Source: Myxococcota bacterium | GTDB taxonomy: Bacteria > Myxococcota_A > Bradymonadia > UBA7976 > UBA1532 | Assembly (NCBI GenBank): GCA_963169045.1 | Contig: CAUJDF010000039.1 | Span: 124,001 to 188,000, forward strand | Direction of reading: 5' to 3' | Length of the DNA stretch: 64,000 nucleotides | Shown here: positions 1 to 19,791 of the stretch, in pieces | Layout of the letters: each line of letters begins with the position of its first letter | Position numbering within the stretch: the stretch's first letter is position 1 | Translations under genes and position numbers: made by a program | Notes under the pieces: generated by a model | Told to the model about the DNA's origin: nothing | Seen by the model: only the letters and a program-made list of their open reading frames with translations | Database searches by the model: none

Positions 1-1565
1 AGCTGGCTGGCGAGCCGGATGCGCTGGCTCTCGCCGCCGCTGAGGCTCGGGCCGGGCCGGTCCAGCGTCAGGTAGTCGAGGCCGACGTTGTTGAGGAAGC
101 GCAGGCGACCGACGATCTCGCGCACGAGGTCCTGCGCGATGACGCCGCGGTTGCCCGACAGCCGCAGACTCCCGAAGAACTCATGGGCTCTCTGAATCGT
201 CCAGCCGCCGACCTCGACGATCGTTACGCCCTCGACCCGCACCGCCGCCGACTCGGCGCGCAGGCGGTGCCCCTTGCAGGTCTTGCACGGCCGGCTGCTG
301 AAGTAACCGGCGAGGTGCGCCCGGGCGTCCTCGCTCTGGCTCTCGCGCCACCGCCGCATCATGTACGGGATGACGCCCTCCCACGCGCTCGAGAAGCCGC
401 GCGAGCCGCCGCCGTGCTTGAACCGGACCTGGACCTCGGTCTCGCCCGATCCGAGCAGCATCGCGTCCTGCTGCGCCTTCGTGAGCTTCACGAACGGAGT
501 GTCGAGGTCGAAGCCGTAGTGCTCGCCGACGGCCTCGCCCATGCGGCGCAGCCATGCGCCCGAGGGGTGGTTCATGAGCCAGCGCCACGGCTTGATGGCG
601 CCGTCGTTGATCGAGAGGGCCGGGTCAGGGACGACGCGCTCCGCGTCGATCTCGAGCGCCGTCCCGAGGCCGTTGCAGTCGCGGCACATGCCGAGCGGCC
701 CGTTGAACGAGAAGGCCGCCGGCGTGAGCTCGGGGAACCCGATCTTGCAGTGCGAGCACCAGCGGTCCTCGCTGAAGAGCCGGTCCGCCTCCTCGCCGAC
801 CACCGACACCACCAGCTTGCCGCTGCCGCGCTTGAGCGCCGTCTCCACCGAGTCGGTGACGCGCGGCCGCGCGTCGGGGCGCGCGACGAGCCGGTCGATG
901 ACCACGTCGAGGTCGTGCTTGCGCTTCTTGTCGAGCGTGAGCTTCTCGTCGAGCTCGACGACCTCGCCGTTCAGGCGGATGCGCGCGAATCCCTGCGTGC
1001 GCAGCTCGTCGAGCAGCTCCTTGTACTCGCCCTTGCGGTTCTCGACGACCGGCGCCAGCAGCACGTACTTCGTGCCCTCGGGCAGCCGCTGCAGCTCGTC
1101 GACGATCTCCTGGGCGCTCTGGGCGGTCACCGGCCGCTGACACTGATGGCAGTGCTGGACACCGGCGCGGGCGAACAGCACGCGGAGGTAGTCGTAGATC
1201 TCGGTGATGGTGCCGACGGTCGAGCGTGGATTGCGGCTGGCCGCCTTCTGCTCGATGGAGATCGTCGGCGACAGCCCGCGAATGCTGTCGTACTTGGGCT
1301 TCTCCATCTGACCGAGGAACTGGCGCGCGTAGGCCGAGAGGCTCTCGACGTAGCGCCGCTGGCCCTCGGCGAACAGCGTGTCGAACGCCAGCGACGACTT
1401 GCCGCTGCCGGAGACGCCGGTGAAGACGACCAGCTTTTTTTTCGGGATGGCGAGGTCGACGCCCTTGAGGTTGTGCTCGCGCGCACCGCGCACGATGAGA
1501 TGGTCGAGCTCGCGGACGGGCTCGTCGGCGGGCGTGCCGGCCGCAGAGGACGCGTCGTCAGACAT
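1..1565 (-). CDS. uvrA: UvrA, excinuclease ABC subunit A (5' part, truncated by window edge)
   Basis: This is the DNA-damage recognition ATPase of UvrABC nucleotide excision repair. Reading the minus strand gives one open frame with no stop from 1565 to base 1, about 521 of the usual ~940 residues. Visible are a Walker A (GVSGSGKS, residues ~50-57), the first zinc-binding module (CSHC followed by FSFNGP and CRDC), and the first ABC signature LSGGES near base 40. An in-frame ATG three codons upstream (1574) is an alternative start; neither has a strong Shine-Dalgarno. The gene is divergent from mpl. A run of eight A on the coding strand encodes PKKKL and does not break the frame. The family call is certain; only the start is open. 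Confidence 0.96.
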   Translation of the reverse strand, partial: MSDDASSAAGTPADEPVRELDHLIVRGAREHNLKGVDLAIPKKKLVVFTGVSGSGKSSLAFDTLFAEGQRRYVESLSAYARQFLGQMEKPKYDSIRGLSPTISIEQKAASRNPRSTVGTITEIYDYLRVLFARAGVQHCHQCQRPVTAQSAQEIVDELQRLPEGTKYVLLAPVVENRKGEYKELLDELRTQGFARIRLNGEVVELDEKLTLDKKRKHDLDVVIDRLVARPDARPRVTDSVETALKRGSGKLVVSVVGEEADRLFSEDRWCSHCKIGFPELTPAAFSFNGPLGMCRDCNGLGTALEIDAERVVPDPALSINDGAIKPWRWLMNHPSGAWLRRMGEAVGEHYGFDLDTPFVKLTKAQQDAMLLGSGETEVQVRFKHGGGSRGFSSAWEGVIPYMMRRWRESQSEDARAHLAGYFSSRPCKTCKGHRLRAESAAVRVEGVTIVEVGGWTIQRAHEFFGSLRLSGNRGVIAQDLVREIVGRLRFLNNVGLDYLTLDRPGPSLSGGESQRIRLASQ

Positions 1566-1665
1566 TCTGGACATCGGTTCAGTGTTCCGAGGTTCGCGGG
1601 AAAGATGCCCACCGCCCCCGCGCCTTGCAAGTCATCGGGAAAAAAGTCGTGTTAAAAGGCCCTCC

Positions 1666-3141
1666 ATGACCAAGCCCCATCAGCCGTGGTTCGTCCGGCG
1701 TCCGATGCCGACGACGGTGAAGAAGGTCCACCTCATCGGCATCGCCGGCGCCGGCATGGGCGCGTTCGCCACCATGCTGCAGGAGGCCGGCTTCGAGGTC
1801 CGCGGGTCCGACCGCGGCGTCTACCCGCCCATGAGCGACGTGCTCACCCGCGCCGGGATCCGGTGGATGGAGGGCTGGGCGCCCGAGCACCTCGACTGGA
1901 ATCCCGACCTCGTCGTCGTCGGCAACGTCTGCAGGCGGGACAACCCCGAGGCCGTCGCCGCCGAGCAACGCGGCATCGCGGCGGTGTCGTTCCCGCAGGC
2001 GTTCAGCGACCTGTTCCTTGCCACCCGTCACCCCGTCGTCGTGGCCGGCACGCACGGCAAGACGACCACGACCGCGCTCACCACCTGGCTGCTCCACAGC
2101 GCCGGCGGCCTCGACCCGGGCATGCTCGTGGGCGGCGTCGCGCGCAACTTCGACTCGACCTATCGCATCGGGAGCGGCGCGCCCTTCGTCGTCGAAGGCG
2201 ACGAATACGACACCGCATACTTCGATAAGGGTCCGAAATTTTTGCACTATCGGCCGCGGACGGTCGTCCTCAACAACATCGAGTTCGACCATGCCGACAT
2301 CTACGACAGCCTCGAAGAGATCATCGAGAACTTCGACCGGCTGATGGACCTGCTCGGACCGGACACGCTCCTCGTCGCGAACCACGACGACGCCCGGGTG
2401 ATGGAGCGCGCGCGGCGGGCGAAGGGCAGGGTCGTCACCTACGGCTTCGGGGAGGGCGCAGACCTGCAGGCGATCGACGTCGTGCCCGGGCCGCACGGCT
2501 GCACGTTCACGCTGGTCCACCGCGGCCGGGTGCTCGGCTGCGCGGTCTCGCCGCTGCCCGGCCGCTACAACCTCTGGAACGTCCTGGCCGGCTTCGCCGT
2601 CGGCTTCGAGCTCGGCGTGCCCTTCGAGAGGCTGGCGCCCGCGCTGCAGGCCTACGCGGGCGTCAAGAAGCGACAGGAGGAGCGCGGCGAGGTGGGCGGC
2701 ATCCTCGTGGTCGACGACTACGCGCACCACCCGACCGCCGTCGACGAGACCCTGCGGGCGCTGCGCGCGAAGTACCCCGGGCGGCGCCTATGGGCGGTGT
2801 ACGAGCCCAAGAGCAACACCGCGCGCCGCAACATCCATCAGCACGAGTACGCCCGCGCCTTCGACGCCGCGGATCGGGTCGTGCTCGCGCAGCCCTACGC
2901 GAAGGACGACGGCCTCGGCCGTGAGCGAATGCTCGACGTCGACGCCCTCGTCGCGCGCATCGCGGAGGGCGGCCCGGTCGCGACGTACCTTCCGGGCGTC
3001 GAGGAGATCCGCGACCACCTCGCGGCGCAAACGGCGCCGGGCGACGTCGTCGTCGTCATGGCGAACAGCGGCTTCGGCGGCCTGATCGAGAAGCTCTTGA
3101 CCGCCCTGCAGGCCCGCTTCAGCGGCGTCGCGGGCGGTTGA
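1666..3141 (+). CDS. mpl: Mpl, UDP-N-acetylmuramate:L-Ala-gamma-D-Glu-meso-DAP ligase
   Basis: This cytoplasmic Mur-ligase-family enzyme of peptidoglycan recycling re-attaches the salvaged tripeptide to UDP-MurNAc using ATP. The 491-residue product has an N-terminal Rossmann motif (GIAGAGMG), the Mpl-type GSDRGVYPPMS segment that separates it from MurC, a P-loop GTHGKTTTT at residues 128-136, then EGDEYDTAYFDK and NNIEFDHADIYD in the central domain, and DDYAHHPTA in the C-terminal domain. The start at ATG 1666 is preceded by AAAAGG at a good distance; ATG 1705 is an alternative. The 3' end overlaps the convergent methyltransferase gene by 23 bases. MurC is the only serious alternative and the YPPMS motif argues against it. 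Confidence 0.93.
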   Translation: MTKPHQPWFVRRPMPTTVKKVHLIGIAGAGMGAFATMLQEAGFEVRGSDRGVYPPMSDVLTRAGIRWMEGWAPEHLDWNPDLVVVGNVCRRDNPEAVAAEQRGIAAVSFPQAFSDLFLATRHPVVVAGTHGKTTTTALTTWLLHSAGGLDPGMLVGGVARNFDSTYRIGSGAPFVVEGDEYDTAYFDKGPKFLHYRPRTVVLNNIEFDHADIYDSLEEIIENFDRLMDLLGPDTLLVANHDDARVMERARRAKGRVVTYGFGEGADLQAIDVVPGPHGCTFTLVHRGRVLGCAVSPLPGRYNLWNVLAGFAVGFELGVPFERLAPALQAYAGVKKRQEERGEVGGILVVDDYAHHPTAVDETLRALRAKYPGRRLWAVYEPKSNTARRNIHQHEYARAFDAADRVVLAQPYAKDDGLGRERMLDVDALVARIAEGGPVATYLPGVEEIRDHLAAQTAPGDVVVVMANSGFGGLIEKLLTALQARFSGVAGG

Positions 3142-4219
3142 GCCGTCGACGGAGCGCCGCCGCCTCGCGCTTCACCTCGGGCTCGACGTTCGCCAGCGCC
3201 GCGACCGCCTTCAGCGCCAGGTTCGCGCCGGCGACGTCGTCGAGCAGCGCGCACATCTGCGCCTGATACAGCCATGCCGGCGCGCAGGTCGGCACCTGTT
3301 CGGTGGCCGCCTGGAAGAGGGTGCGGGCGCCCTTCACGTCGTCGCGGTCGAGTCGGTGCGCCGCCCACTGGATGTAGGCCTCGGGCCGCTTCGGATCCAC
3401 GCCGACCGCCTCTTCGAGCACCCGCTCGGCCTCGGCAGTCGCGCCGTGCTCCGCGTGTTGGATGGCGAGGTAGAGCAGCAGGTCGTACTCGAGCGTGCGC
3501 CCGCTCGTGTCGTCGGCATCCGCCGCCTCGCGCGGCCCTTCTCCTGCGGCGACCGGATCGCCGACCTTCTGCGCGTTCACCCACACCGGCTTGAGCTGCA
3601 GGATGGGATCCTCGTAGTCGATCTCCTCGATCTCGTGCAGCGAGAAGCCGGCATCTCGGTTCAATTGCTGAAAGGTTTCAGGTGAGTACACCCGAATACT
3701 GATGGTGTCGCTCGAACCTGAGAACTGGTCGCGCCCGACCCAGAACTGATAGCGGAACCAGCCGCCCGGCCGGAGCACGCGGCTGACCTCGCGGAAGTAG
3801 GCGCGCGCCACCTCCGGCGGTACGTGCGACAGCACGGCGTAGCTGAAGACGAGGTCGTACGCGGCGTCGGGAAAGCCGGCGAGGTCCGCCCCCGAGTTGA
3901 CGTGGAAGGCGACGCCGGGCCGCGCGCCGTGCTCCCGGCGGGCGACCTCGATCATCTCCGGGGAGATGTCGACGCCGTCCACGTGGCCGAAGCGTTCGGC
4001 GGCGCGCACCGTCAGGCGGCCCATGCCGCAGCCGAGGTCGAGCACATTGGCCTCGGGACCGACGCGACCGCGCAGCCCGGCGACGAGCATGGCCGCGTCG
4101 CGATCGCCCGACGCCTCGTAGCTCTCCACCGTGGCGTCCTGGGTGGCCGCGACCCAGTAGCGCGGGTCGATGCGGGCCCGGCGATCCCAGTCGCGACGCA
4201 TTTTCTCGCGGATGTCCAT
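3119..4219 (-). CDS. Class I SAM-dependent methyltransferase with C-terminal TPR-like repeats
   Basis: The product has 366 residues. Its N-terminal half is a Rossmann methyltransferase: motif I VLDLGCGMG around residues 70-80, the acidic VDGVDIS loop after it, and post-motif segments FSYAVLSHVPP and VLRPGGW. The C-terminal ~130 residues are Ala-rich helical repeats that resemble tetratricopeptide repeats (LEEAVGVDPKRPEAY, TLFQAATEQVPTCAPAW). The substrate cannot be read from the sequence. I chose ATG 4219, giving MDIREKMRRDWD, because an upstream start would add only 12 residues of poor quality. The gene converges on and overlaps mpl, and is divergent from the DUF2723 gene with 62 bases between them. 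Confidence 0.8.
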   Translation of the reverse strand: MDIREKMRRDWDRRARIDPRYWVAATQDATVESYEASGDRDAAMLVAGLRGRVGPEANVLDLGCGMGRLTVRAAERFGHVDGVDISPEMIEVARREHGARPGVAFHVNSGADLAGFPDAAYDLVFSYAVLSHVPPEVARAYFREVSRVLRPGGWFRYQFWVGRDQFSGSSDTISIRVYSPETFQQLNRDAGFSLHEIEEIDYEDPILQLKPVWVNAQKVGDPVAAGEGPREAADADDTSGRTLEYDLLLYLAIQHAEHGATAEAERVLEEAVGVDPKRPEAYIQWAAHRLDRDDVKGARTLFQAATEQVPTCAPAWLYQAQMCALLDDVAGANLALKAVAALANVEPEVKREAAALRRRLNRPRRR

Positions 4220-4281
4220 GCCGGCGGTATACGCCAGTCGGACCAGCCGCGCCACCGCGGGCTGTGCTAGATCGGGAGCCG

Positions 4282-6015
4282 ATGTCCCGCTCCTCCGACG
4301 CGCCCCTCACCGCCGCCGTCTTCGCCGTCGCGGGCGCGTTCGCGGGGCTGACCGCGCTGCCCGGCCCGCACTGGCACGACACCGCCGAGTTCGCCGCCGT
4401 CGGCGCGCGGCTCTCGCTTTCGCACCCCCCCGGCCACCCGGTGCATGCGGTGACCACGCACGCGGCGCAGCTCGTACCGCTGGGGGACGCCGCCTTCCGC
4501 GCCAACCTCGCCAGCGCCTTCGCGCTCGCGGCCGCCCTCGCGCTGTTCTTCCGCCTTCTCCGGCGCCTGGCGCCGGGGGCTCCCGCCGTCGGGGTCGCCG
4601 CCGCCGCGCTCCTGCCCGTCGTCATGCCCGTCGTCTGGTTGCAGGGCGCGCGCGCCGAGGTCTACGCGCTCCAGCTCGTCTTCAGCGTCATCGCCGCCGA
4701 CCTCTGCCGCCGCGCCGCCGCCGGCGACGACGCGCGCGCGCCGGCGGCGCTGGCCCTCGCCGTCGCGCTCGCCGGCGCCAACCACAGCCTGGTCGCCGCC
4801 ACCTGGATCCCGCTCGGCGTCGTCGCGCTCGCTCTCGGCGTCCGCCGCGCCCGTCCGCTCCTCCTCGCGGTGCCTGCCGGGCTGCTCGGGCTCGCGGCCT
4901 ACGCCTACCTCCCGCTGCGCGCTCACGCCGGCGCGGAGGTCGGCTGGGGGGTTCCCGACACGGTCGCGCGGGTCGTCGAGACGATCACCGCCCGCGAATG
5001 GCAGCGCGCCGCGGCGCCCGACGTGCCCCCGGTCGATCTCGCCGACAACCTCGCGAGCCTCACCGCCTACGGCATCGACCAGGTCGGCCCGGTCGTCGCG
5101 CTGGCGCTGCTGGCGATCGTCCTCGCGGGCACGCCGCGGCTGGTCCGCGAGCGACGCTGGATGGCGCTCGGCGCCCTCGCGGTCGTGGCGCTCGCCTTCG
5201 CGACCCGCGTCGTCTTTCCGCTCGATCTGTTGAACCCGGACCTGGGTGGCTACGTGCTGTCCGGCCTGCTGGGCGGCGTGGCGCTGGCCGTGGCCGCGGC
5301 CGATGCCGCCTGGCGCCCGGCCGCATGGATCTTCGTGCCGCTCCTCGCGTTCGTGGCGCCGCGCTTCGACCCAGGCGAGCGCATGGGGAGTCGCGCCGCC
5401 GAGATCGCCGCCCGGCGAATGCTGGCCGAGGTCCCCCCCGGCGGCACGATCGTCTTCGCCGACTACGCCTCGTGGTTCCTCGGCGCGGCCCTGCGGGCGA
5501 TCGAAGGCGCGCGCCCCGACGCCGCGCTGTTGTTCCGCGGCCAGATCCACCGCGACTGGTTCCGGGAGCGGCTGTCGTGGCACCGGCGGGACGCCGCGGC
5601 CCGCGCCGCGGCCTTCCCGGCGGGGTACGGTGCGCCCGGCGATCGCTTCGAGCCCGGCGTCCACGCCGAGCAGCTCGCGGGCCTCGCCTCGCGCCTCCGG
5701 CCCGTGGGGCTCACGCTGGCCGCGGATGGGCCGTGGCCCAGCGTGAGCGCCGCTGCCGCCGCCTTCGCCGGGCTCGCCCCCGAGGACCTCGACACGAGGC
5801 GCGGCCTCGCCTTCGTTCACCTCCAGCACGCCGAGCACGTGGCGAGGGCGCTCGCGGGCGGCGGCGAGCGGTCGGCTGAGGCGCGCGCGCTGCTCGAATG
5901 GCACCTGGCGCGTGCCGACGCGCTGGCGCCCGGCGACCCGTTCGTGGCGGACGCCCGGGCGCGCGCCGGGGGGCCCGACTCGCCGAAGCCTCTGGACGCT
6001 GTCGGGGGCCGGTGA
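4282..6015 (+). CDS. DUF2723 family multi-pass membrane protein (probable glycosyltransferase-like)
   Basis: This 577-residue protein has an N-terminal half of many hydrophobic segments and a soluble C-terminal part. The start of the family domain is clear: D33 and E36 in WHDTAEF, then HPPGHPVH, the D..E/HPPG arrangement shared by DUF2723 proteins, which resemble membrane protein O-mannosyltransferases of the GT-C fold. The pattern suggests use of a lipid-linked sugar at the membrane; acceptor and sugar are unknown. The ATG at 4282 has GGGAG five bases upstream; a GTG six codons earlier (4264) is possible but lies beyond that site. The gene precedes the PP2C phosphatase in the same direction with a 42-base gap. 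Confidence 0.72.
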   Translation: MSRSSDAPLTAAVFAVAGAFAGLTALPGPHWHDTAEFAAVGARLSLSHPPGHPVHAVTTHAAQLVPLGDAAFRANLASAFALAAALALFFRLLRRLAPGAPAVGVAAAALLPVVMPVVWLQGARAEVYALQLVFSVIAADLCRRAAAGDDARAPAALALAVALAGANHSLVAATWIPLGVVALALGVRRARPLLLAVPAGLLGLAAYAYLPLRAHAGAEVGWGVPDTVARVVETITAREWQRAAAPDVPPVDLADNLASLTAYGIDQVGPVVALALLAIVLAGTPRLVRERRWMALGALAVVALAFATRVVFPLDLLNPDLGGYVLSGLLGGVALAVAAADAAWRPAAWIFVPLLAFVAPRFDPGERMGSRAAEIAARRMLAEVPPGGTIVFADYASWFLGAALRAIEGARPDAALLFRGQIHRDWFRERLSWHRRDAAARAAAFPAGYGAPGDRFEPGVHAEQLAGLASRLRPVGLTLAADGPWPSVSAAAAAFAGLAPEDLDTRRGLAFVHLQHAEHVARALAGGGERSAEARALLEWHLARADALAPGDPFVADARARAGGPDSPKPLDAVGGR

Positions 6016-6057
6016 TAAACCCCCCCGAAGGGACGAGCCCCGGACAGGCGCAAATAC

Positions 6058-7929
6058 ATGGAGGTCCGCTTCTGGGCCGCGACCGACGTCGGCCGCGCCC
6101 GCGACCACAACGAGGACAACTTCCTGGTCGACAAGAAGTTGAACCTCTTCATCGTCGCCGACGGCATGGGCGGTCACGCCGCCGGTGAGGTCGCTTCGTC
6201 GGTGGCGGTTCGCGAGGTCCGGCGCATCGTCGCCGAGAACCGCAAGATCGTCGCCAGCTACGCCCGGGACGAGTCGCCCGAGGGCCGTCACGCCGTGCTG
6301 CGGCTCATCGAGCAGGCCGCCCAGGCCGCGTGCGCGCGCATCTTCGAGCTCGCGCAGCAGTCGGCCGATCGGCGCGGCATGGGCACGACGCTCTCGTTGC
6401 TCCTCATCGCCGGCCGCCGGGGCTTCATCGGCCACGTGGGCGACAGCCGCATCTACCTCTTGCGCAGCGAGCAGGTCCACCAGCTCACCGAAGACCACTC
6501 GCTGATCAACGAGCTGATCAAGCGCGGCCGGCTGAAGCCCGGCGACGTCTTCGACAGCCCTTACAAGAACGCGGTCACGCGCGCCGTCGGGGTCTACGAG
6601 TCGGTCCAGGTCGACACTCTCGACTTCGACATCCTGCCCGGCGACGAGTTCCTGCTGTGCAGCGACGGCCTCAGCTGCTACCTCGAGACCGAGAGCACGC
6701 GCCGCATCCTCGCCAACGAGAACATCCGCGAGGTGCCCGAGCGCTTCATCGCCTTGGCGAACGAGGCTGGCGGCAAGGACAACATCACCGCGATCGTCGT
6801 GCGCATCCTCGACGAGGCCGACGAGGCCCGCAGCGAGCGCATGACCGAGGTCCGCCTCAAGCTCGACACGCTGCGCGCGATCCCGCTCTTCAAGTACCTG
6901 AGCTACAAGGGCCTGGTAAAGGTGATGAACATCACCGAGACCCGGCGCTTCCGTACCGGCACGCGCATCTTCGAAGAGGGCACGCGAGGGGACGAGTTCT
7001 ACATCGTCCTGTCGGGCACCGTCCGCATCACCAAGGCGGGCGTGCATCTCGCCGAGCTGGGCCCCGGTGGCCACTTCGGCGAGATGGCGATGGTCGACAA
7101 GGCCGCGCGCTCTGCCACGGCCACCGCCGTCGACGACGTGAAGGCGCTCGTCATCCAGCGGCGACAGTTCTACGACGTGATGCGCCGCGATCCCGTGATG
7201 TCCGTGAAGCTCATGTGGAGCTTCATCCAGGTGTTGAGCACGCGCCTCCGCCTGACGAACCGGGAGCTGCTCTCCGCCCGGGAGACGATCGACATCCTGC
7301 GTCGGCACCAGGTCGGCGGCATCATCGCCGAGATGCCCTCCATCGATCCGGCGGCGGCTGCGGTCGCCGCCTTGCCGATCGAGGTCACCGACGAGCTGAT
7401 CCCCGGCTTCCTGTTCGCGGACAGCGAGGCGTCGCGCACCGATCCGCTCATGCGGGTCGAGGAGCGCACTTCTCCGCTGGACCACGCCGATCTCGACGCC
7501 CGCCCGGGCCTCGAGGACGGGGCCTCGGGGCGCATGAGCGACGTCGACGACCTGGACGACACCGAGGTCCGGGCCGTCGACGACGACGAGCTCGATAGCC
7601 TCCTGCACGACGAGACGGAAGGGGGAGCGACGACCCTCCCTCGATCGCGCGCGCCGGCGGGCATCCAAAGCCCCGCCGTCGACGAAGCCGCCGCCGAGGT
7701 CCCGACACCGACGTCTCCGGGCTCGGGCGAGCCCGACGGAGACGACGACGACGACGATCTCGAGGCGGACGACGCCGCCGGCGTTCCCGCGGACGTCCCG
7801 ACGACGACCGACATGCCCGCCCTCATCGTCCCCGAGGGCCGCACGACCCTCGACCTCGGCCGCCGCTCGCGCCCGCCCGTATCCCTCTTCGCCGACGACG
7901 AAGACGACCCCTCCGACGACGACCGCTAG
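6058..7929 (+). CDS. PP2C-type Ser/Thr phosphatase fused to a cyclic-nucleotide-binding domain
   Basis: The product has 623 residues. Residues ~1-255 are a PP2C/PPM phosphatase with the metal-binding motifs in order: RDHNED, ADGMGGH, GDSR, SDGL and GGKDNIT. Residues ~262-400 are a cNMP-binding domain with its phosphate-binding cassette (GGHFGEMAMVDKAARSATA); the Glu and Arg that contact the cyclic phosphate are both kept. The remaining ~220 residues are acidic and low-complexity (runs of Asp near the end) and look disordered. It probably removes phosphates from targets of Hanks-type kinases under control of cAMP or cGMP; that control is inferred from the fusion. An anchored lectin-like protein follows 14 bases downstream. 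Confidence 0.87.
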   Translation: MEVRFWAATDVGRARDHNEDNFLVDKKLNLFIVADGMGGHAAGEVASSVAVREVRRIVAENRKIVASYARDESPEGRHAVLRLIEQAAQAACARIFELAQQSADRRGMGTTLSLLLIAGRRGFIGHVGDSRIYLLRSEQVHQLTEDHSLINELIKRGRLKPGDVFDSPYKNAVTRAVGVYESVQVDTLDFDILPGDEFLLCSDGLSCYLETESTRRILANENIREVPERFIALANEAGGKDNITAIVVRILDEADEARSERMTEVRLKLDTLRAIPLFKYLSYKGLVKVMNITETRRFRTGTRIFEEGTRGDEFYIVLSGTVRITKAGVHLAELGPGGHFGEMAMVDKAARSATATAVDDVKALVIQRRQFYDVMRRDPVMSVKLMWSFIQVLSTRLRLTNRELLSARETIDILRRHQVGGIIAEMPSIDPAAAAVAALPIEVTDELIPGFLFADSEASRTDPLMRVEERTSPLDHADLDARPGLEDGASGRMSDVDDLDDTEVRAVDDDELDSLLHDETEGGATTLPRSRAPAGIQSPAVDEAAAEVPTPTSPGSGEPDGDDDDDDLEADDAAGVPADVPTTTDMPALIVPEGRTTLDLGRRSRPPVSLFADDEDDPSDDDR

Positions 7930-7943
7930 AGAGATACCAGCCC

Positions 7944-8699
7944 GTGGAATCGCCGATGCCCGTGAAAGCGCCGGAGCCCACCGATAACGGCGGACCTGCG
8001 GCGTCCCGATTCCGGTCCGTCAGGCGCGGCCGCCTCTTCGTCGCCGTCGCCGCGCTCGCGTTCCTCGCCGTCTCGATCGCGACGATGGGATGGGCCTTCC
8101 GTCCGCGGACGCTGCCGGCGCCGAACGGGCGCCTGATCTACAGCGACGACTTCGAGGGCTCCGCGCTCCGCGACGACTGGCGGCAGTCCGAGGCCGATCC
8201 GGGTTGGACGGCGGGCCGCTGGCAGGTCGTGGGCGGACGCCTGCGCGGCGAGAAGATCCACAACGCCGCGCTCTGGCTGAGAGTGCCGCTGCCCGAGAAG
8301 GTCCGGATCGAGTTCGACGCGCGGGCGGAGACGCCCGACGGCGACGTGAAGGCGGAGGTCTTCGGCGACGGACGCACGCACCAGAGCGGCTACATCGCGA
8401 TTCACGGCGGTTGGCGCAACACCGTGCGCGCCATCGCCCGCCGTGACGAGCACGCCGAGGAGCGCAAAGAGGACAACCGTTGCGACGTCGTCGGGCGACG
8501 GACACGCTGCGTCGAGCCCGACGTCGACTATCATTGGGCCCTCGTCCGCACGGGCGACACGCTCGAGTGGTACCTCAACGGTACCCTGCTGCTGACGTAT
8601 CCCGACACGCACCCGGTGCGCGGGCGACACTTCGCCTTCAATGGCTGGGAGGCGGTCACCTCCTTCGACAACCTGCGCATCTACGATCTCTCCGACTAG
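7944..8699 (+). CDS. Membrane-anchored protein with concanavalin A-like (lectin/glucanase) domain
   Basis: This 251-residue protein has a short cytoplasmic N-terminus and one hydrophobic segment at about residues 33-50 (FVAVAALAFLAVSIATM). The extracytoplasmic domain is predicted to be all-beta. Its opening IYSDDFEG, the central WQVVGGRLRGE and the end SFDNLRIYDL are typical of the LamG/DUF1080-like sandwich. No catalytic residues could be assigned, so a carbohydrate-binding or structural role is more likely than hydrolysis. I use GTG 7944; ATG 7956 is in frame and equally possible. It sits 14 bases after the phosphatase gene and may be cotranscribed with it. Confidence 0.6.
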   Translation: MESPMPVKAPEPTDNGGPAASRFRSVRRGRLFVAVAALAFLAVSIATMGWAFRPRTLPAPNGRLIYSDDFEGSALRDDWRQSEADPGWTAGRWQVVGGRLRGEKIHNAALWLRVPLPEKVRIEFDARAETPDGDVKAEVFGDGRTHQSGYIAIHGGWRNTVRAIARRDEHAEERKEDNRCDVVGRRTRCVEPDVDYHWALVRTGDTLEWYLNGTLLLTYPDTHPVRGRHFAFNGWEAVTSFDNLRIYDLSD

Positions 8700-8787
8700 C
8701 GATCTCGTCGGCCGTCCCGGACGCTGCGGAACGGTCGCGACGACGCGCGCAAGCGCCCGCGGGGCGGCCCTCCGCGCCGATTCTCCC

Positions 8788-8816
8788 TTGTCACCTGGGG
8801 CCCCCCGTGGTATCTC
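8788..8816 (+). promoter_or_regulatory. Candidate sigma70 promoter for rimP-nusA operon
   Basis: TTGTCA (8788-8793, 5/6 to consensus) is followed after exactly 17 bases by TATCTC (8811-8816, 3/6). It lies upstream of the intrinsic terminator at 8848-8871, so a transcript starting near 8823 would carry that terminator in its leader. The weak -10 keeps confidence low. Confidence 0.33.
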
Positions 8817-8847
8817 CGCCACCGACTTCGCCGTACGCTCCGGTCGA

Positions 8848-8871
8848 GGGCTCGCAGAGCCCTTTTTTTTT
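8848..8871 (+). terminator. Intrinsic terminator in front of rimP (possible attenuator)
   Basis: GGGCTC (8848-8853), a GCA loop and GAGCCC (8857-8862) form a perfect 6-bp stem followed directly by nine T (8863-8871). This is the only textbook Rho-independent terminator I found in the window. It is 149 bases after the preceding gene and only 36 bases before the rimP start. It may end the upstream transcript, or attenuate the rimP-nusA-infB operon. Confidence 0.75.
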
Positions 8872-8907
8872 GGCCGGGGCCACGGCGGCACCTGTGGAGG
8901 CGCGTTC

Positions 8908-9441
8908 GTGTCCGAAGAACGTCGCGAAAACGACCGGCTCGTCATCGGGGGCGCTCGCCGCCCGGTGATCGAACGGGCGTGGGCGGCGGTCGCGCCCATC
9001 GTCGAGGACGTCGGCCTCGACCTCGTGGGCCTCGAGCTCGGTCGCGAGGGCCACCGGCCCGTCCTCTGGGTCTTCATCGATCGCCCCGAAGGCGGCGTGA
9101 CCATCGACGACTGCGCGCGGGTCCATCCCGAGATCTCCGCTGCGCTCGACGTCGAAGATCCCATCACCGAACCCTACGAGCTGCGCGTCTCGTCGCCTGG
9201 CCTCGACCGGCCGCTCGTCCGGGCGACCGACTTCGAGCGCTTCGCCGGGCGCGAAGCCGTGGTGCAGCTTTCCGAGCCGCTCGGCGGGCGACGCAAGTTC
9301 ACCGGTGTGATCCTGGGCCTGCGGACGGACGCCGTCGCGCTGCAATGCAGCGATGGCGAACACGAGGTGCCGCTCGAGCTCATCCACCGCGCACATCTGA
9401 AGTACGACGTGGGGCCGAAGCCGACGAAGCCCAAGTCCTGA
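8908..9441 (+). CDS. rimP: RimP, 30S ribosome maturation factor
   Basis: RimP assists late assembly of the 30S subunit and binds near S12. The 177-residue product has the family core: LGLELV-type segment DLVGLELGREG, VFIDRPEGGVTIDDC, the conserved YELRVSSPGLDRPL, and a C-terminal SH3-like domain (KFTGVILGL, VPLELIHRAHL). It is slightly longer than the usual 150-160 residues because of an N-terminal extension of about 20. The start is GTG 8908 with GTGGAGG seven bases upstream. It is the first gene of the rimP-nusA-infB operon, and nusA follows 72 bases later. Confidence 0.93.
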   Translation: MSEERRENDRLVIGGARRPVIERAWAAVAPIVEDVGLDLVGLELGREGHRPVLWVFIDRPEGGVTIDDCARVHPEISAALDVEDPITEPYELRVSSPGLDRPLVRATDFERFAGREAVVQLSEPLGGRRKFTGVILGLRTDAVALQCSDGEHEVPLELIHRAHLKYDVGPKPTKPKS

Positions 9442-9513
9442 AGGACGCTTCCGAAGCGACGATCCGACGGCGAGCGAGCGAGGCCATGACGTACACGAAG
9501 AGGAGGGGCTGAG

Positions 9514-11214
<1,701 letters not shown>

Positions 11215-11217
11215 AAG

Positions 11218-11868
11218 ATGGCGCGGCGCGGGCGCGGTCGCCGTGCCCCGCGCACGGCGACCCCAAGACCCGAAATCCCCACCCGAACCTGCCTCGGTTG
11301 CCGCGGCCGGTTCCCGCGGGATGAGTTGGTGCGCTGGGTCGTCGGACCCGGTGGTCAGCTGTTCGTCGATAGAAACCTGAAACTGCCGGGTCGTGGCGCC
11401 CACCTGTGCCACGACGCGGCGTGCCTCGAAAAAGCCATACGCCGCAAGGCCTTCGGTCGAGCGTTCCGACAGCCGGTCGGTGCGATCGACGGCGAGGCCC
11501 TCCGCGGCCGAATCCTCGAAGCCGTCGAGGCACGCGTGGTCGACCTTCTCGGCATCGCACGCCGCGCCGGTTGGTCCGTCTTCGGTGCCGATGTCCTCGA
11601 CCGGGCACTGCAGGCGGGCCAGGTACGGCTGGTGGTGACCGCCACTGACGCCGCCGCCCACTCGTTGAAGCGTCTGATGGGGCGCAGCGAGACGGAGAGG
11701 ATCCCGGTCGCCGAGGGGTTCCTCGATCGAGAGGCGCTGGGCCGCACCCAGGGGCGAGAGGCGCTGGTGGCCGTGGGCATCACTCACGGGCCGGTCGCCG
11801 AGAAGCTGCAGTCCGAGTTGCAGCGTCGTAACCGGGTTTTGGTTGCGGCCGCAGCGCAAAGTCTATAG
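11218..11868 (+). CDS. YlxR (DUF448)-L7Ae-like fusion protein
   Basis: This 216-residue protein joins two small RNA-binding domains that are separate neighbouring genes in Firmicutes (ylxR and ylxQ). Residues ~22-95 are the YlxR domain with RTCLGC, FPRDELVRWV and GRGAHLC. Residues ~110-200 are an L7Ae/L30e/Gadd45-like fold (DLLGIARRAGWSVFGADVLDRAL, RLVVTATDAA). YlxR of Bacillus binds the RNase P RNA and is called RnpM; that role is only a guess here. The N-terminus is Arg-rich. It starts four bases after nusA and is followed by infB, the standard location. Assignment of both domains is good; function is open. Confidence 0.86.
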   Translation: MARRGRGRRAPRTATPRPEIPTRTCLGCRGRFPRDELVRWVVGPGGQLFVDRNLKLPGRGAHLCHDAACLEKAIRRKAFGRAFRQPVGAIDGEALRGRILEAVEARVVDLLGIARRAGWSVFGADVLDRALQAGQVRLVVTATDAAAHSLKRLMGRSETERIPVAEGFLDREALGRTQGREALVAVGITHGPVAEKLQSELQRRNRVLVAAAAQSL

Positions 11869-11919
11869 AAGTGGCCCGCTCGGCGGCCCCCCAAGGGGCC
11901 ACCGGTGGCTGGAGAGCAA

Positions 11920-14900
11920 ATGGGCAAGAGAGTCTTCGAGGTCGCCAAGGAACTGGGGATGGATCACCGCCAGCTCATGGACCGGTGCGACCAGTTCCAG
12001 ATTGAGGTCAAGAACTACATGTCGGTGATCAGCGACGCCGACGCGCAGCGCCTCAAGACTGCCATCGAGGCCGAGCGGCGGCCCGCCTCCGTCGAGCAGA
12101 AGGCGCCCGGTGTGCGCCGTCGCGTCGGCGAGGCCGCCGCGCGTCCGGCTCCTGCGCCTGCTCCGGTCGCCACGCCGGCGGCTCGGGCTGCGGCTGCGAA
12201 GCCGGCGGCTCCGACCGCGCCGCCGCCCGTGCGACGCGCGACGTCGACCGCGGCGCAGCCGACGCCGACGCCCGCAGAGGCGGCCAAGCCGGCCGAGGCG
12301 GAGGTGGCGACCGAGCGATCCGCGCCGATCCCGGAGCCGCCCGCCGAGCGTCCCGCGCCCGTGACGCCGCCAGCCGCCGAGGCGCCCGCGCCGCCGTCCT
12401 CGCAGGTGGAGGCGCCCAGGCCCGTCGCGCCTCCCGAGAAGCAGCCCGAGCCGTCGTCGGCCGAGCCCGAGCGTCCCGCGGCCCCGGCCGAGCCGGCTGC
12501 TCGCGTCGTTCGTCCGGCGGAGCCGCCGGTCGACGAGGTCGAACGACCCGCTGCCCGCGTCACCGCGCCGCCACCTGCCGAGCGCCGCGCCCCCGAGCGT
12601 TCCACCGAGCGCGCCCCGGCCGAGCGCCCGACCGAACGCCCCGCTGTTCGCGGCGCCGAGCGTCCGATGACCGAGCGCCCGGCCCTGCGTCCGGGCGATC
12701 GGCCCTCCGGCGATCGGCCCGCGGTGCGTCCGGGCGAGCGTCCGTCCGCCGGTGACCGGCCCGGTGTCCGTCCTGCCGAGCGACCCGCGCAGCGCGGTCC
12801 GGCGGGCGACGGCCAGCCGATGCGCACCGGTCCGACGCGGGGACCGATGGTGCGACCGGGAGATGCCGGTCCCGCCTCGGCGCGTCGTCCCGACGACCGT
12901 GGCGAACGCCCCGGCGCCGACCTGCGTCGTCCGACCGCCGCGCAGCAGCAGGCGCCGGGCGCCCGCTCCCGTCCGGGGGCGCCCGAAGGTGGCGCCGGCG
13001 CGGCCGAGAGCCCGGTTCGCGCCAAGGTCCTCGGGACGATCCCGCTCGACCAGCTCCGCAGCCGGACGGCGCCGCGCATGCCGCCGCGCGGCGCGCCGCC
13101 TCGACGCGACGGCATGGGGCCTGGCCCCGGCGGTCCGCGTGGCCCCGGCGGTCCGCGTGGCCCCGGCGGTCCGCGTGGCCCCGGCGGCATGCTGCAGCAG
13201 CCGATCGTGCCGAGCGCGTTCCCGCCTGGCCGTCCGGTCGAGGGGCGCCGCCGTCGCGAAGGGCCCGCGCGGCCCGGAGGAGGCGGCGAGACTGCCGAAG
13301 CCGACAAGCCGAAGACCGGCGGCGGCAAGGGTGGAGCGAAGAAGCGTCAGGTCTTCAGCCGCGAGGATCTGTACTCGCCGGCTGGCTCGAAGAGCCGTGC
13401 GCGCAAGCGCAAGGCGCCGACCCGCAAGGGCGGCAAGACGATGGTGACCACGCCGGCGGCCCACAAGCGCATCGTCAAGATCGATGAGACGATCAGTGTC
13501 GGCGAGCTCGGTCGCGAGCTGGGTGTCAAGGCCAACGAGCTGATCGCCAAGCTCATCCAGATGGGCTCGATGGCCACGATCAACAGCCAGATCGATCGCG
13601 ACACCGCGGGCATCCTCGCGGCCGAGTACGAGTACGAGGTCCGCGACGTCTCGTTCGACGAGGACGAAGTGCTGTCGGGTCCCCTCGAGGAGGAAGAGCT
13701 CGCCGAGGATCCCGACGCCGAACCGCGTGCGCCCGTGGTTACCATCATGGGTCACGTCGACCACGGCAAGACGACCCTGCTCGACCGCATCCGCAAGGCC
13801 AAGGTGGCCCAGGGCGAGGCGGGCGGCATCACGCAACACATTGGCGCGTACCGCGTGCCGGTAGGCGACAACTTCGTCGTGTTCCTCGACACCCCGGGTC
13901 ACCAGGCCTTCACGGCCATGCGTGCGCGCGGTGCCCAGGTCACCGACGTCGTTGTGCTGGTGGTCGCCGCCGACGACGGCGCCATGCCGCAGACGGTCGA
14001 GGCGATCAACCACGCCAAGGCCGCCGGGGTGCCGATCGTCGTGGCGATCAACAAGATCGACAAGGCCGGCGCCGACACGGACCGTGTCAAGCACGAGCTG
14101 ACGAAGTACAGCCTGATCCCCGAGGAGTGGGGCGGCGATACTCTCTTCGTCCCTGTGAGCGCGCTGACGGGGAAGGGCGTTGACTCGTTGCTCGAGAGCC
14201 TGGCGCTTCAGACGGAGATCCTCGAGCTCAAGGCGAATCCGAAGAAGCCCGGCTTCGGTCACGTCGTCGAGTCGCGCATCGACAAGGGGCGCGGCCCGGT
14301 GGCAACGGTTCTCGTCGAAGAGGGCACCCTTCGGCGCGGTGACTTCGTCGTGGCAGGCGCCAGCTTCGGCCGTGTGCGCGCCATGCTCGACGAGCACGGC
14401 AAGCAGCTGAAGGAGGCGGGACCCTCGACTCCGGTCGAGGTGCTCGGTCTCGACGGTGTGCCGCCGGCGGGCGAGGGCTTCCACGTCGTCGCCAATGAGA
14501 AGGACGCGAAGCGCGTCGTCGAGATGCGCACCCAGAAGGAGAAGGAGAAGGAGGCCAAGGCTGGCGCGCGCCAGGCTCCGGCCGACCTTCTCGCGGCGAT
14601 GGGTGCGAAGGCCACAGAGACGCTGCACGTCATTCTCAAGACGGACGTCCATGGCTCGCTCGAAGCGGTGAGGACGGCGGTGGAGCAGCTCGGCACCGCG
14701 GAGGTGTCGGTCAGGGTGATCCACTCTGGAGTCGGCGCCATCACCGAGTCCGACGTCATGCTGGCCGAGGCTTCCTCGGCGCGCGTCGTCGGCTTCAACG
14801 TGGGACCCGACAACAACGCGAAGCGCCTCGCGACGCAGAGCGGCATCGACATTCGCAGCTACACCGTCATCTATGAGCTCATTGATGCAGTGAAGGGCAT

Positions 14901-15231
14901 GATGGGCGGGCTGCTGGCCCCGGAGCTGGTCGAGAACGCACTGGGCCGCGCCGAGGTGCGGGCCGTGTTCCGGGTCAGCAAATCCGGGACGATCGCCGGC
15001 TCCTACGTGCTCGACGGCAAGGTGGCCCGCAATGCCCAGGCGCGCATCATGCGCGAGGGCAAGCTGGTCCACCGCGGCAAGCTCGTCGGCCTCAAGCGCT
15101 TCAAGGACGACGTGCGCGAGGTTGCGAGCGGATACGAGTGCGGTATCTCCGTCGAGGGCTATGACGACGTCGCCGTCGGCGACATCGTCGAAGTCTTCGA
15201 AATCAAGGAGGTCCAGCGGAGCATCGGCTGA
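11920..15231 (+). CDS. infB: Translation initiation factor IF-2
   Basis: This GTPase brings initiator fMet-tRNA to the 30S subunit and promotes subunit joining. The 1103 residues comprise an IF2_N module (residues 1-50), a Pro/Ala/Arg/Glu-rich disordered linker of about 450 residues with ERP and GGPRGP repeats, a second IF2_N module (~515-565), the G domain (G1 GHVDHGKT at ~610, then DTPGH and NKID), domain II, and the C-terminal fMet-tRNA-binding domains. I chose ATG 11920, which has GGAG five bases upstream, over GTG 11905. A small hairpin, GGCCCC/GGGGCC, lies at 11885-11900 in the leader. The stop overlaps the rbfA start by one base. Confidence 0.97.
13123..13188 (+). repeat. In-frame 18-bp tandem repeat inside infB
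   Basis: Three exact copies of an 18-base unit (13123-13140, 13141-13158, 13159-13176) plus 12 bases of a fourth encode the hexapeptide GPGGPR repeated. The repeat lies in the disordered linker of IF-2. It keeps the frame, so copy-number change would only lengthen or shorten the linker. Confidence 0.9.
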
Positions 15232-15636
15232 TGGCCGCACCATCCAACCGCACCCAGCGGGTGGCGACGCTCGTCCGCGAGGTGCTCTCCGAGCTGATCC
15301 GCTTCGAGGTGAAGGATCCCCGGGTCGCCGCCATCACGCTGACAGACGTCGAGGTGACCGGCGACCTGCGGGAAGCCCGCGTCTATTACACTGCGCCCGA
15401 GGACGACAAGACCCGTCAGGCGATCGCCGAAGCGTTGCGACGGGCGAGCGGCTTCCTGCGGCGCGAGCTCGGGCAGCGTATCCGGCTCCGCGTGACGCCC
15501 TCGCTCGAGTTTCGGCTCGATCCGTCGCTCGAGTACGGCGCGCGCATCGAGCGCGCGCTCCACGAGTTGGGGCTCGGGGAGGCCGCCGCCAAGGAGCGGT
15601 CCGAGGGCGGCGACGATGAGCGCGCAGAGGACGACG

Positions 15637-15647
<11 letters not shown>
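15231..15647 (+). CDS. rbfA: RbfA, 30S ribosome-binding factor A
   Basis: RbfA is a KH-fold factor for late 16S rRNA maturation and cold adaptation. The 138 residues show the family start (RTQRVATLVREVLSELI), the DPR segment (VKDPRVAAITLTDVEV), LREARVYYT, and RIRLRVTPSLEFRLDPS. The last ~25 residues are acidic (DDERAEDDDE). The ATG overlaps the infB stop codon by one base, so it is probably translationally coupled. The truB start lies inside its last codons. Confidence 0.95.
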
Positions 15648-16541
<894 letters not shown>

Positions 16542-16545
<4 letters not shown>

Positions 16546-16570
16546 CGGACGCTCCACGTTGGCGTAGAAG
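16542..16570 (+). promoter_or_regulatory. Candidate sigma70 promoter for rpsO
   Basis: TTGACG (16542-16547, 5/6) and TAGAAG (16565-16570, 4/6) are separated by exactly 17 bases. The -35 overlaps the truB stop codon. Transcription would start near 16577, leaving a leader of about 70 bases before the rpsO ATG, which includes the palindrome at 16621-16634. Confidence 0.5.
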
Positions 16571-16646
16571 GCGCGCGATAACGGCGCTGGCTGCTCGACG
16601 GCGCGGCCAGTCGCGACACGCTCCCCGAGGGGAGCCGGAGGAACAC

Positions 16647-16916
16647 ATGCCGCTCGCTCGTGAGACGAAGGCCGAAATCATCGAGAAGTTCAAGCGAGGC
16701 GAGAACGACACCGGTTCGCCCGAGGTCCAGGTGGCGCTCATGACCCAGCGCATCAACGACCTCACCGAGCACTTCAAGACCCACAAGCACGACCACCACT
16801 CGCGCCGCGGCCTGTTTCTCCTGGCCGGCCAGCGTCGTCGCCTGCTCAACTGGCTCAAGAAGACCGACGTCGAGCGCTACCGTGCGCTGATCGCCCAGCT
16901 CGGCATCCGCAAGTAA
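16647..16916 (+). CDS. rpsO: 30S ribosomal protein S15
   Basis: S15 is a primary 16S rRNA-binding protein of the 30S platform. The 89-residue length is exactly that of the family. Characteristic segments are [27 protein letters not shown] and [10 protein letters not shown]. The ATG at 16647 has a strong GGAGG (16637-16641). Just upstream, CTCCCC-GA-GGGGAG (16621-16634) is a 14-base inverted repeat next to the Shine-Dalgarno. S15 represses its own mRNA in several bacteria, so this could be a control element; that is inference. pnp follows after 243 bases, as in enterobacteria. Confidence 0.97.
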
Positions 16917-16932
16917 GGTCAGGTTCGAAGCC

Positions 16933-16959
16933 GGGGAGGGGGCCCCCGGCGCCCTCCCC
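16933..16959 (+). terminator. GC-rich hairpin after rpsO
   Basis: GGGGAGGG (16933-16940) and CCCTCCCC (16952-16959) form an 8-bp stem 16 bases after the rpsO stop. There is no U-tract, so it is either a weak terminator or a processing and stability structure between rpsO and pnp. Confidence 0.4.
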
Positions 16960-16974
16960 TCCGTACATTCAACC

Positions 16975-17072
16975 CGGAGCGCGCATATCGCGCTCCGCCC
17001 CGGAAACCGGTCGCAGCCTCAGTAACTGACCAGAGCCGCCCACTCGCCGTGGACGTACCTGGTCAGCGACCG
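16975..17072 (+). promoter_or_regulatory. Two stem-loops in the pnp leader (possible PNPase/RNase III autoregulation site)
   Basis: The first stem pairs CGGAGCGCG (16975-16983) with CGCGCTCCG (16989-16997) over a 5-base loop. The second pairs CGGTCGC (17008-17014) plus TGACCAG (17027-17033) with one continuous 3' arm, CTGGTCAGCGACCG (17059-17072), leaving a 12-base bulge. Escherichia coli pnp is autoregulated through RNase III cleavage of a long leader hairpin; the position here, 88 bases before the start, suits that role. Confidence 0.42.
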
Positions 17073-17159
17073 AGGCGAGCGAAAGCAATCGCGTCCGGCG
17101 TCCAGGGGCGCACTGCGGGCTCGGGTGGCAAGGGCCGCCTTCCGCAGAAAGGACGCTGC

Positions 17160-19262
17160 ATGGGTGTCACCACCCTGTCCGCTCAGTTCGGCACCACCGC
17201 CATCACGCTCGAAACCGGCCGACTCGCGAAGCTCGCGGGCGGCTCGGTCCTCGTCACGATGGGGGAGACGGTGGTGCTCGTCACCTGCGTCGGCGCGAAA
17301 TCCGGCCGTCCGGGCCAGAACTTCCTGCCGCTGACGTGCGAGTACGTCGAGAAGATGTACGCCGCGGGGCGCATCCCCGGCGGTTACTTCAAGCGCGAGG
17401 GTCGCCTCGGACCTTGGGAGATCCTGGCTTCGCGCCTGATGGATCGTCCCATGCGCCCGCTCTTCCCCGATCACTGGCGCAACGAGATCCAGGTCATCGC
17501 GACCGTCCTCTCCGCCGACAACATCAACGACCCGGTCATCTGCGCGATGGTCGGCGCGTCGGCGGCCACCACGATCAGCGACGTGCCCTTCGACGGCCCC
17601 ATCGGCGGTTGCCGCGTGGCGCTCATCGATGGCGAGTACGTCGTCAACCCGACGTTCCAGCAGCAGGAGCAGGCGAAGCTCTCGCTGATCGTCGCCGCCG
17701 GCCGCGACGCCGTGGTGATGGTCGAGGGCGAGTGCCACGAGGCGTCCGAGGCCGAGGTCATCGATGCCATCATGACCGCCCACGAGGCGATCAAGCCGAT
17801 CATCGCGCTGCAGGAGCAGCTGCAGCGAAAGGTCGGTCGTGCGAAGATGAAGGTCGAGGCGCCCGAGACCGATCGCGATCTCTTCGGTCGCGTCATCGAT
17901 CTCTCGCTCGACCGCCTGGCCGACGCCGTGGCGATCCCCCAGAAGGAACTCCGCTACGACGCCGTCTCCAAGGTCGCCAAGGACGTCATGGAGACGCTGG
18001 TGGCCGAGGACGCCTCGCTCGCCGAGCGTGCCGAGGAGATCAAGGGCTACCTCAAGGCGATCCAGAAGGACATCGTCCGTACGCAGATCGTCGAAGAGGG
18101 CGTCCGCATCGACGGTCGTGGGCCGAAGGACATCCGCAAGATCACCTGCGAGGTGGGCGTGTTGCCGCGCACGCATGGCTCGGCGCTCTTCACGCGCGGC
18201 GAGACGCAGGCGCTCGGCACGGTGACCCTCGGGACGCGCCGTGACGAGCAGCGCATCGACAACCTGCGAGGCGACCAGTTCGTCCGCTACATGCTGCACT
18301 ACAACTTCCCCCCGTTCTGCACGGGCGAGGCGAAGATGTTGCGCGGCTCGAGCCGACGCGAGATCGGCCATGGCGCCCTCGCGCAGCGTGGCGTTGAACC
18401 GATCCTGCCGTCCCGCGACGACTTCAACTACGTGCTCCGCATCGTCAGCGAGGTGCTCGAGTCGAATGGCTCGTCCTCGATGGCGACGGTGTGCGCGTCG
18501 TCGATGGCGCTCATGGATGCCGGCGTCCCGGTGAAGAAAGCCGTGGCTGGCATCGCGATGGGCCTCATTCAGGAGGAGGACCGCATCGAGGTCCTGTCCG
18601 ACATCCTCGGTGACGAGGATCACCTCGGCGACATGGACTTCAAGGTCGTCGGGACGAAGGAAGGCATCACCGCCATCCAGATGGACATCAAGGTCTCGGG
18701 GCTCAGCCGCGAGATCCTCGAGCGCGCGCTCAAGCAGGCGAAGGACGGCCGGCTCCACATCCTTCGCGAGATGGCCAAGGCGATCAAGGCGCCCCGCGAG
18801 GATCTGTCGCAGTACGCGCCGCGGATCCTCACGTACTACGTCAAGCCCGACAAGATCCGCGACGTCATCGGCCCGGGGGGCAAGACGATCCGCGGGATCA
18901 TCGAGCAGACGGGCGTCGCCATCGACGTCGACGATACCGGTCGGGTGTCGATCGCCAGCCCGAACCTGGAAGCGGCGCAGTCGGCGCTCGACATCATCAA
19001 GGGCCTCACCCAGGAGCCCGAGATCGGCCGCGTCTACCGCGGAACGGTGCGCAAGATCATGGACTTCGGCGCCTTCGTCGAGATCCTTCCGGGCACCGAC
19101 GGCCTCGTGCACATCTCCGAGCTGGCCGATCACCGCGTGGCGCGCGTCGAGGACGTGCTCTCCGAGGGCGACGAGGTCATGGTGAAGTGCATTGGGGTCG
19201 ATCGGCAGGGCAAGATCCGCCTCTCCCGCAAGGAAGCCATCGCCGAGCAGACCGCGCACTGA
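17160..19262 (+). CDS. pnp: Polynucleotide phosphorylase (PNPase)
   Basis: PNPase is the phosphorolytic 3'-5' exoribonuclease of the degradosome. The 700-residue length is standard. It has two RNase PH-type domains joined by a helical linker; the second includes [15 protein letters not shown] and the catalytic-region IAMGLI. A KH domain follows ([11 protein letters not shown] at ~570), then an S1 domain ([17 protein letters not shown] at ~623). I chose ATG 17160, which gives the family N-terminus and has AAGGA upstream; the frame stays open for 37 more codons upstream but that stretch holds the leader hairpins. dut follows after seven bases. Confidence 0.97.
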
Positions 19263-19269
19263 CCTGCCC

Positions 19270-19719
19270 TTGATCGTTCTGTTCCAGCGCCTGCCCGCGG
19301 CGTCGGCGCCCGACGCGTTGCCGCTGCCGACCTTCGCGACACCCGGTGCGGCGGGGATGGACCTCGCCGCCGCCGTTCGCGAGCCGCTGACGCTTGCGCC
19401 CGGTGAGCGGGGCCTCGTGCCGACGGGGTTCGCCATCGCGATCCCGGATGGCTACGAAGGACAGGTCCGGCCGCGTTCCGGCCGCGCGCTCGCCGAAGGG
19501 CTGACCGTCCTCAATGCGCCGGGCACGATCGACGCCGACTACCGCGGCGAGCTTCGCGTGCTGCTGGTCAATCTCGGCTCGGCGCCCATCGTCGTGCGCC
19601 GCGGCGAGCGCGTCGCGCAGCTCGTGGTGGCGCCTGTCGTTCGTCCGACGGTCCACGAAGCCGAGGCGTTGCCCCCTGCCGCCCGCGGGGCCGGCGGCTT
19701 CGGCCACACGGGGCGCTGA
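19270..19719 (+). CDS. dut: dUTP diphosphatase (dUTPase)
   Basis: This trimeric enzyme hydrolyses dUTP to dUMP and pyrophosphate, keeping uracil out of DNA and feeding dTMP synthesis. The 149 residues carry all five motifs: [23 protein letters not shown] (catalytic Asp and Tyr), [10 protein letters not shown], and the C-terminal GAGGFGHTG. The start is probably TTG 19270, since the pnp stop is at 19262 and no ATG lies before motif I at a sensible place. The neighbours pnp and the kinase gene do not suggest a further role. Confidence 0.93.
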
Positions 19720-19731
19720 CCCTCTCGCCCC

Positions 19732-19760: not shown

Positions 19761-19791
19761 ACTGCGCTTCCTGGCCGAGGGGGAGTTCGCG

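Follow-up and report, generated by a model that had tools for sequence, protein, structure and literature searches.

A conserved promoter-terminator arrangement before rimP suggests attenuation of the nusA operon in a Myxococcota bacterium

Introduction

In the Myxococcota bacterium considered here, an intrinsic terminator lies between a promoter candidate and rimP, the first gene of an operon that also encodes the transcription factor NusA. This raises the question of whether the terminator attenuates transcription of the operon, potentially in response to NusA itself, or whether it belongs to another transcript, such as that of the gene upstream. The region was analysed within a window of 64,000 nucleotides, which is the whole stretch of DNA under study, and compared with the rimP loci of relatives.

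Results and discussion

Organization of the rimP upstream region

A preliminary description of the window proposed that a TTGTCA-N17-TATCTC promoter candidate, a hairpin with a U-tract and the rimP start located 36 bases further downstream constitute an attenuation system for the nusA operon. The coordinates of this arrangement were confirmed by direct reading, and its parts are as follows:

8788 to 8816, forward strand: promoter candidate, with TTGTCA at 8788-8793, a 17-nt spacer at 8794-8810 and TATCTC at 8811-8816, preceded by TGG (read directly)
8821 to 8845, forward strand: short leader of 21-25 nt from the expected transcription start to the terminator (read directly, start predicted)
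8846 to 8864, forward strand: terminator hairpin GAGGGCTC GCA GAGCCCTT, with the 5' arm at 8846-8853, the GCA loop at 8854-8856 and the 3' arm at 8857-8864 as read directly (supported by sequence, folding and homologues in 14/14 loci of the order)
8863 to 8871, forward strand: U-tract of nine T, the first two of which are paired within the stem
8896 to 8899, forward strand: GGAG, likely ribosome-binding site of rimP (read directly)

The gap of 36 nt between terminator and rimP spans positions 8872-8907. Downstream, the Pfam order RimP, NusA, YlxR, IF-2, RbfA, TruB, S15 and PNPase agrees with the gene identities originally assigned:

8908 to 9441, forward strand: rimP, with a GTG start at 8908 (PF02576, PF17384)
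9514 to 11214, forward strand: nusA, the proposed feedback regulator (NusA_N, S1, KH_5, KH_1, HHH_5)
11218 to 11868, forward strand: ylxR (PF04296)
11905 to 15231, forward strand: infB, encoding IF-2 (IF2_N, GTP_EFTU, IF-2)
15231 to 15647, forward strand: rbfA (PF02033)
15616 to 16545, forward strand: truB (PF01509, PF16198)
16647 to 16916, forward strand: rpsO, encoding S15, start picked by eye (PF00312)
17049 to 19262, forward strand: pnp, encoding PNPase, longest open reading frame with an uncertain start (RNase_PH, PNPase, KH_1, S1)

Upstream of the element, an open reading frame of 251 amino acids (7944-8699) is located on the same strand as rimP, with 146 nt separating its end from the hairpin, and a Pfam search of its product yielded no match at 1e-5. 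Relatives of this reading frame are found upstream of rimP in twelve of the fourteen loci of the order, itself counted. The reading frame at 6058-7929 combines a PP2C phosphatase domain and a cyclic-nucleotide-binding domain in one frame.

The promoter candidate

By our own count, 8/12 positions of the promoter candidate agree with the consensus, while the built-in promoter scan, which needs 9/12, listed none in positions 1-20000. When the 90 nt preceding the hairpin were shuffled 200 times, no shuffle attained the score of the candidate on a weighting of our own that combines the -35, the -10 and the TG (p 0.005). Transcription is expected to start at approximately 8821-8825, 21-25 nt upstream of the hairpin, and the sequence ACTTCGCCG at 8825 is similar to the start of the leader in relatives, where the consensus of our alignment is CGACTTCGCCGG; apart from this start the leader is poorly conserved in the alignment. 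The contention that too little room remains for a promoter between terminator and gene was borne out, as positions 8872-8907 contain no TA and hence no -10 fits there, and a promoter downstream of the terminator was rejected on this basis. As far as sequence can tell, the locus shares with a NusA-stimulated attenuator of the B. subtilis kind a promoter upstream of the leader terminator and none between the terminator and the gene. The promoter spacer also contains a perfect palindrome, GGGGCCCC, at 8798-8805.

Relatives show a similar, if uneven, picture. Twelve loci of the order, L001-L012 (group f1; eleven from genomes of the family of the window, and L011 from a sister family), have a TTG and a TGnTA in every case, the end of the -10 lying 21-42 nt upstream of the hairpin. 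Compared with shuffles, the promoter score gave p<=0.05 in 8/14 loci of the order and p<0.2 in 13/14, with a value of 0.77 for L014. In a wider set, p<=0.05 was obtained for 45 of the 130 loci, with the -10 end mostly 18-39 nt before the hairpin.

Strength and uniqueness of the terminator

The hairpin at 8846-8864 has a predicted folding energy of -12.0 kcal/mol, equalled by none of 200 shuffles. It had been described as the only canonical terminator in the 64 kb, and this holds: in a scan of both strands, fourteen hairpins (eight plus, six minus) are followed by 5 or more T among 8 bases, and a single one of them reaches at least 6 T. A loose terminator scan of the first 20 kb found six sites where 6.6 were expected from shuffling, and the absence of an excess indicates that it is the T-run, rather than the hairpin alone, that stands out. 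Within a genome sample of 337,659 of 9,004,260 bases, searched on both strands, four sites have a dG of -9 or lower and 6 or more T among 8 bases. The sole other run of at least seven T in the window, at 1435-1442, presumably represents lysine codons on the minus strand, in a reading frame resembling uvrA.

Conservation among relatives

The rimP locus was obtained from fourteen of the sixteen genomes of the order, and a hairpin followed by a U-tract (at least 6 T of 8) precedes rimP in all fourteen. In five of these (L002, L003, L004, L005 and L007) the upstream neighbour is divergent, and the element is retained in each; there the hairpin, which faces rimP, ends no upstream gene. A scan of two of the five divergently encoded proteins identified them as carbon-nitrogen hydrolases, the other three being alike by eye, while the neighbour of L009, judged from its reading frame alone, is possibly divergent too. 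The succession of promoter-like site, hairpin and U-tract ahead of rimP is accordingly conserved regardless of which gene lies upstream. Attenuation predicts that the order is kept in relatives irrespective of the upstream gene, which a terminator of that gene does not, and as such the proposed attenuation of the nusA operon is supported.

The wider occurrence of the element was assessed in 102 loci, the window included, which remained from 110 after the removal of three duplicates (L031, L032 and L093) and five loci without a rimP match. They are titled Myxococcales, Deltaproteobacteria, Bdellovibrio, Desulfobulbaceae, Acidobacteria and others, representing several phyla. A terminator, defined by a dG of -9 or lower, 6 or more T among 8 bases and a position at most 260 nt before the rimP match, was found in 86/102 loci, many of which are related, so that these counts are not independent. 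The same definition was satisfied on the other strand in 2/102 loci, in 4/510 shuffles, before nusA in 0/102 loci, and in random stretches of the same loci in 4/510 (plus strand) and 10/510 (minus strand) cases. Eleven of the sixteen loci that miss have a hairpin with dG <= -9 followed by 5 T or located beyond 260 nt. Three (L016, L018 and L069) have a weak hairpin only, and a hairpin of the terminator kind is absent from two (L058 and L067).

A tRNA gene immediately precedes rimP and shares its strand in 5/32 loci scanned (L025:321-406, L030:1211-1296, L068:2215-2287, L097:2196-2271 and L098:2219-2294). These comprise Leu-CAG twice, Gln-CTG, and Gly-CCC twice; their position resembles that of metY in E. 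coli, with other tRNAs, and some of the hairpins that follow them may end the tRNA. A tRNA scan found no tRNA gene between promoter and rimP in the window or in the other thirteen loci of the order.

Stem sequence and pairing

The stem of the window is GAGGGCUC/GAGCCCUU, whereas most other loci have a stem like GAAAGUGGGC/GCCCGCUUUU. As RNA, the former reads GGGCUC GCA GAGCCC and so conforms to the GGGc(...)gCCC pattern of the published rimP-leader class. Among the 86 loci having a terminator, 66 contain GGGC..GCCC; it is lacking in three members of the order (L006, L013 and L014). The pattern AGGGCTC-N2-6-GAGCCCTTTT occurs a single time in this genome, at rimP. It is found once each in 6/18 genomes, five times at rimP and in the sixth (G015, contig 13) elsewhere.

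Across the fourteen loci of the order, seven stem pairs give 98 cells, all of which (98/98) hold standard pairs, and six of the seven pairs are changed on both sides. The changes at pairs 2, 5, 6 and 7 rest solely on L013 and L014, in a register that we chose. The arms too were author-chosen for this count, and L003, L009 and L011, still readable, failed a script check on loop length or following bases. A covariance model had 4 pairs only and was left unused, with L011, L013 and L014 misplaced by the aligner.

Relation to known rimP and nusA leaders

An element of this kind, the rimP-leader, with NusA as the best regulator candidate, was published by Naville and Gautheret in 2010 (PMC2965389). 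As in their description, the window has an intrinsic terminator before the rimP that heads rimP-nusA-infB, with a G-rich 5' arm containing GGGC and a C-rich 3' arm containing GCCC followed by a T-stretch. The spacing of 36 nt lies within the published range of 4-130 nt, and, as in the published class, no larger conserved element of the riboswitch or T-box type was found by Rfam searches or in our alignment. The window differs in that its GGGC adjoins the U-tract side of the stem, while in most other loci it adjoins the loop side.

Termination in the B. subtilis nusA operon leader is stimulated by NusA, according to a 2025 review (PMC12288461). The operon of the window likewise encodes NusA and has an intrinsic terminator within its 5' leader; the B. 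subtilis nusA (ylxS) leader is, however, approximately 180 nt long (PMC2965389), whereas the start in the window is expected 21-25 nt before the hairpin. In the E. coli metY-rimP-nusA-infB operon, metY and the terminators t1 and t2 precede rimP (PMC6511841), and repression by NusA has been reported, as cited in PMC2965389. The window shares with it a terminator between the promoter candidate and rimP, but has no tRNA gene and one terminator instead of two. B. subtilis is the nearer precedent for the termination mechanism; the E. coli operon also has metY and two terminators before rimP.

The Rfam rimP leader family, RF01770, is listed for Gammaproteobacteria (PMC5471319) and shares its gene context with the window. 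It had no match in the window at the gathering score and none in 8600-9100 at E<=10. More generally, no Rfam family reached its gathering score in the whole window, 8600-9100 gave two unrelated sub-threshold matches only at E<=10, and the fourteen loci gave at E<=5 only rRNA, tRNA and one sub-threshold match, with no rimP family among them. The terms 'Deltaproteobacteria' and 'Myxococc' are absent from the main text of PMC2965389, and a search of the literature accessible to us found no paper on a rimP attenuator in Myxococc. Most likely, the element belongs to the published class, of which many bacteria already provide examples, and differs in a local variant of the stem.

Probable attenuation and competing explanations

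We suggest that the element is probably a rimP-leader attenuator, at which NusA would most likely raise termination. RNA polymerase would start at the promoter at 8788-8816 and, approximately 50 nt later, meet the intrinsic terminator at 8846-8871, where part of the polymerases would stop and release an RNA of 45-51 nt. The remaining polymerases would continue into rimP-nusA-ylxR-infB, and possibly beyond. NusA, the product of the second gene, would most likely raise termination, so that an excess of NusA would lower expression of its own operon. As so short a leader could not accommodate a large sensor, a polymerase-bound factor would be the natural effector, and NusA has precedent in this role. 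We infer that NusA acts at the leader of the window and that a fraction of the polymerases reads through. Several observations weigh against attenuation: the promoter has just 8/12 consensus matches, six of the fourteen order loci have a promoter score of p>0.05, 16/102 loci miss the terminator definition, and a tRNA gene precedes the hairpin in some loci. The apparent strength of the hairpin and its nine-T tract also counts against the model, which requires that enough polymerases pass them.

The hairpin could instead terminate the 251 amino acid gene, with rimP transcription starting elsewhere, a role consistent with the co-directional orientation of that gene and its end 146 nt away. We consider this quite improbable because the loci with a divergent neighbour retain the element; furthermore, 8872-8907 lacks a TA and the promoter-like site is found before the hairpin, not after it. 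Promoter and terminator would also yield an RNA of 45-51 nt that might act in trans as a separate small RNA, to which rimP is incidental, and a rimP leader is named among the ProQ-associated sRNAs derived from attenuators (PMC5391140). This carries very little weight for us against the location of the element directly before rimP in all fourteen order loci, the poor conservation of the leader beyond its start and the lack of any Rfam family at gathering score in the window. An unregulated terminator, imposing a fixed low read-through ratio, would fit the failure of Rfam to reveal a sensor or aptamer in the window or in 8600-9100 and a leader too short for a large one, but appears unlikely, given that feedback by NusA has precedent for the operon (PMC2965389, PMC12288461).

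Attenuation at this locus would extend a published attenuator to a high-GC lineage, in which it is kept while the neighbouring gene is exchanged. The leader of approximately 50 nt, together with the GGGC-less stems of relatives, would furthermore offer a small template on which to ask if NusA recognizes the sequence of the stem or its structure only.

A possible alternative helix

Some leaders (L050, L131 and L133) begin with ACAUUUU and have a complement beside the foot of the hairpin, which prompted tests for an alternative helix. In such a helix, the first bases of the transcript would pair with the terminator 5' arm at its foot, favouring read-through until displaced; in the window, CUUCGCCG would pair with CGGUCGAGG. 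When the window leader is folded as it would be before the 3' arm exists, the foot is masked at -9.4 kcal/mol. The foot is likewise masked in eleven of the twelve leaders L001-L012, compared with 8.7 +- 1.3 in shuffles and 8.7 +- 1.1 in swaps, and in 73/118 other loci (57.3 +- 4.4 and 62.2 +- 4.2, respectively). The swap test drew on 130 of 155 loci with a rimP match, after sixteen duplicates or cut loci and nine without a usable hairpin had been dropped. Leader-foot pairing reached p<=0.05 in 20/91 loci (median 0.34). Among 91 dereplicated loci, true leader-foot pairs beat swapped ones (z -3.9), and helices of at least 8 pairs were found in 22/91, compared with 13.2 +- 3.0 in 40 swaps; long complements occur in L050, L131 and L133. 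Helices of at least 7 pairs are found in 9/12 of the L001-L012 leaders (5.7 +- 1.3 in swaps), but those of at least 8 pairs number 2 against 2.9 +- 1.2. Pairing in the window leader itself is no better than in shuffles (z -0.30; p 0.23). In the swap test, true and swapped pairs do not differ significantly for L001-L012 (p 0.36-0.69) or group f6 (p 0.25-0.75), and decoys made by shuffling or reversal, or taken from upstream or downstream, attain z -1.1 to -3.1. The general form of the rimP-leader was, moreover, described as having no visible antiterminator (PMC2965389).

The masking of the terminator foot by an alternative helix is as such suggestive without being established, and we regard a switch of this kind as having a low probability here. 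A broader and tentative proposal, also of low probability, is that the rimP-leader of Myxococcota and relatives is a two-state switch of approximately 50 nt, in which the bases that begin the transcript (ACAUUUU-X in some lineages, ACUUC-X here) would bind the foot of the terminator. If true, the choice between stop and go would be set within the first 50 nt, providing an RNA basis for a leader described without an antiterminator. Transcripts are expected to begin with ACATTTT(T) in L034, which holds the homologous leader of Myxococcus, and in L037, L049, L050, L131 and L133; in these loci part of the bases downstream is complementary to the hairpin foot.
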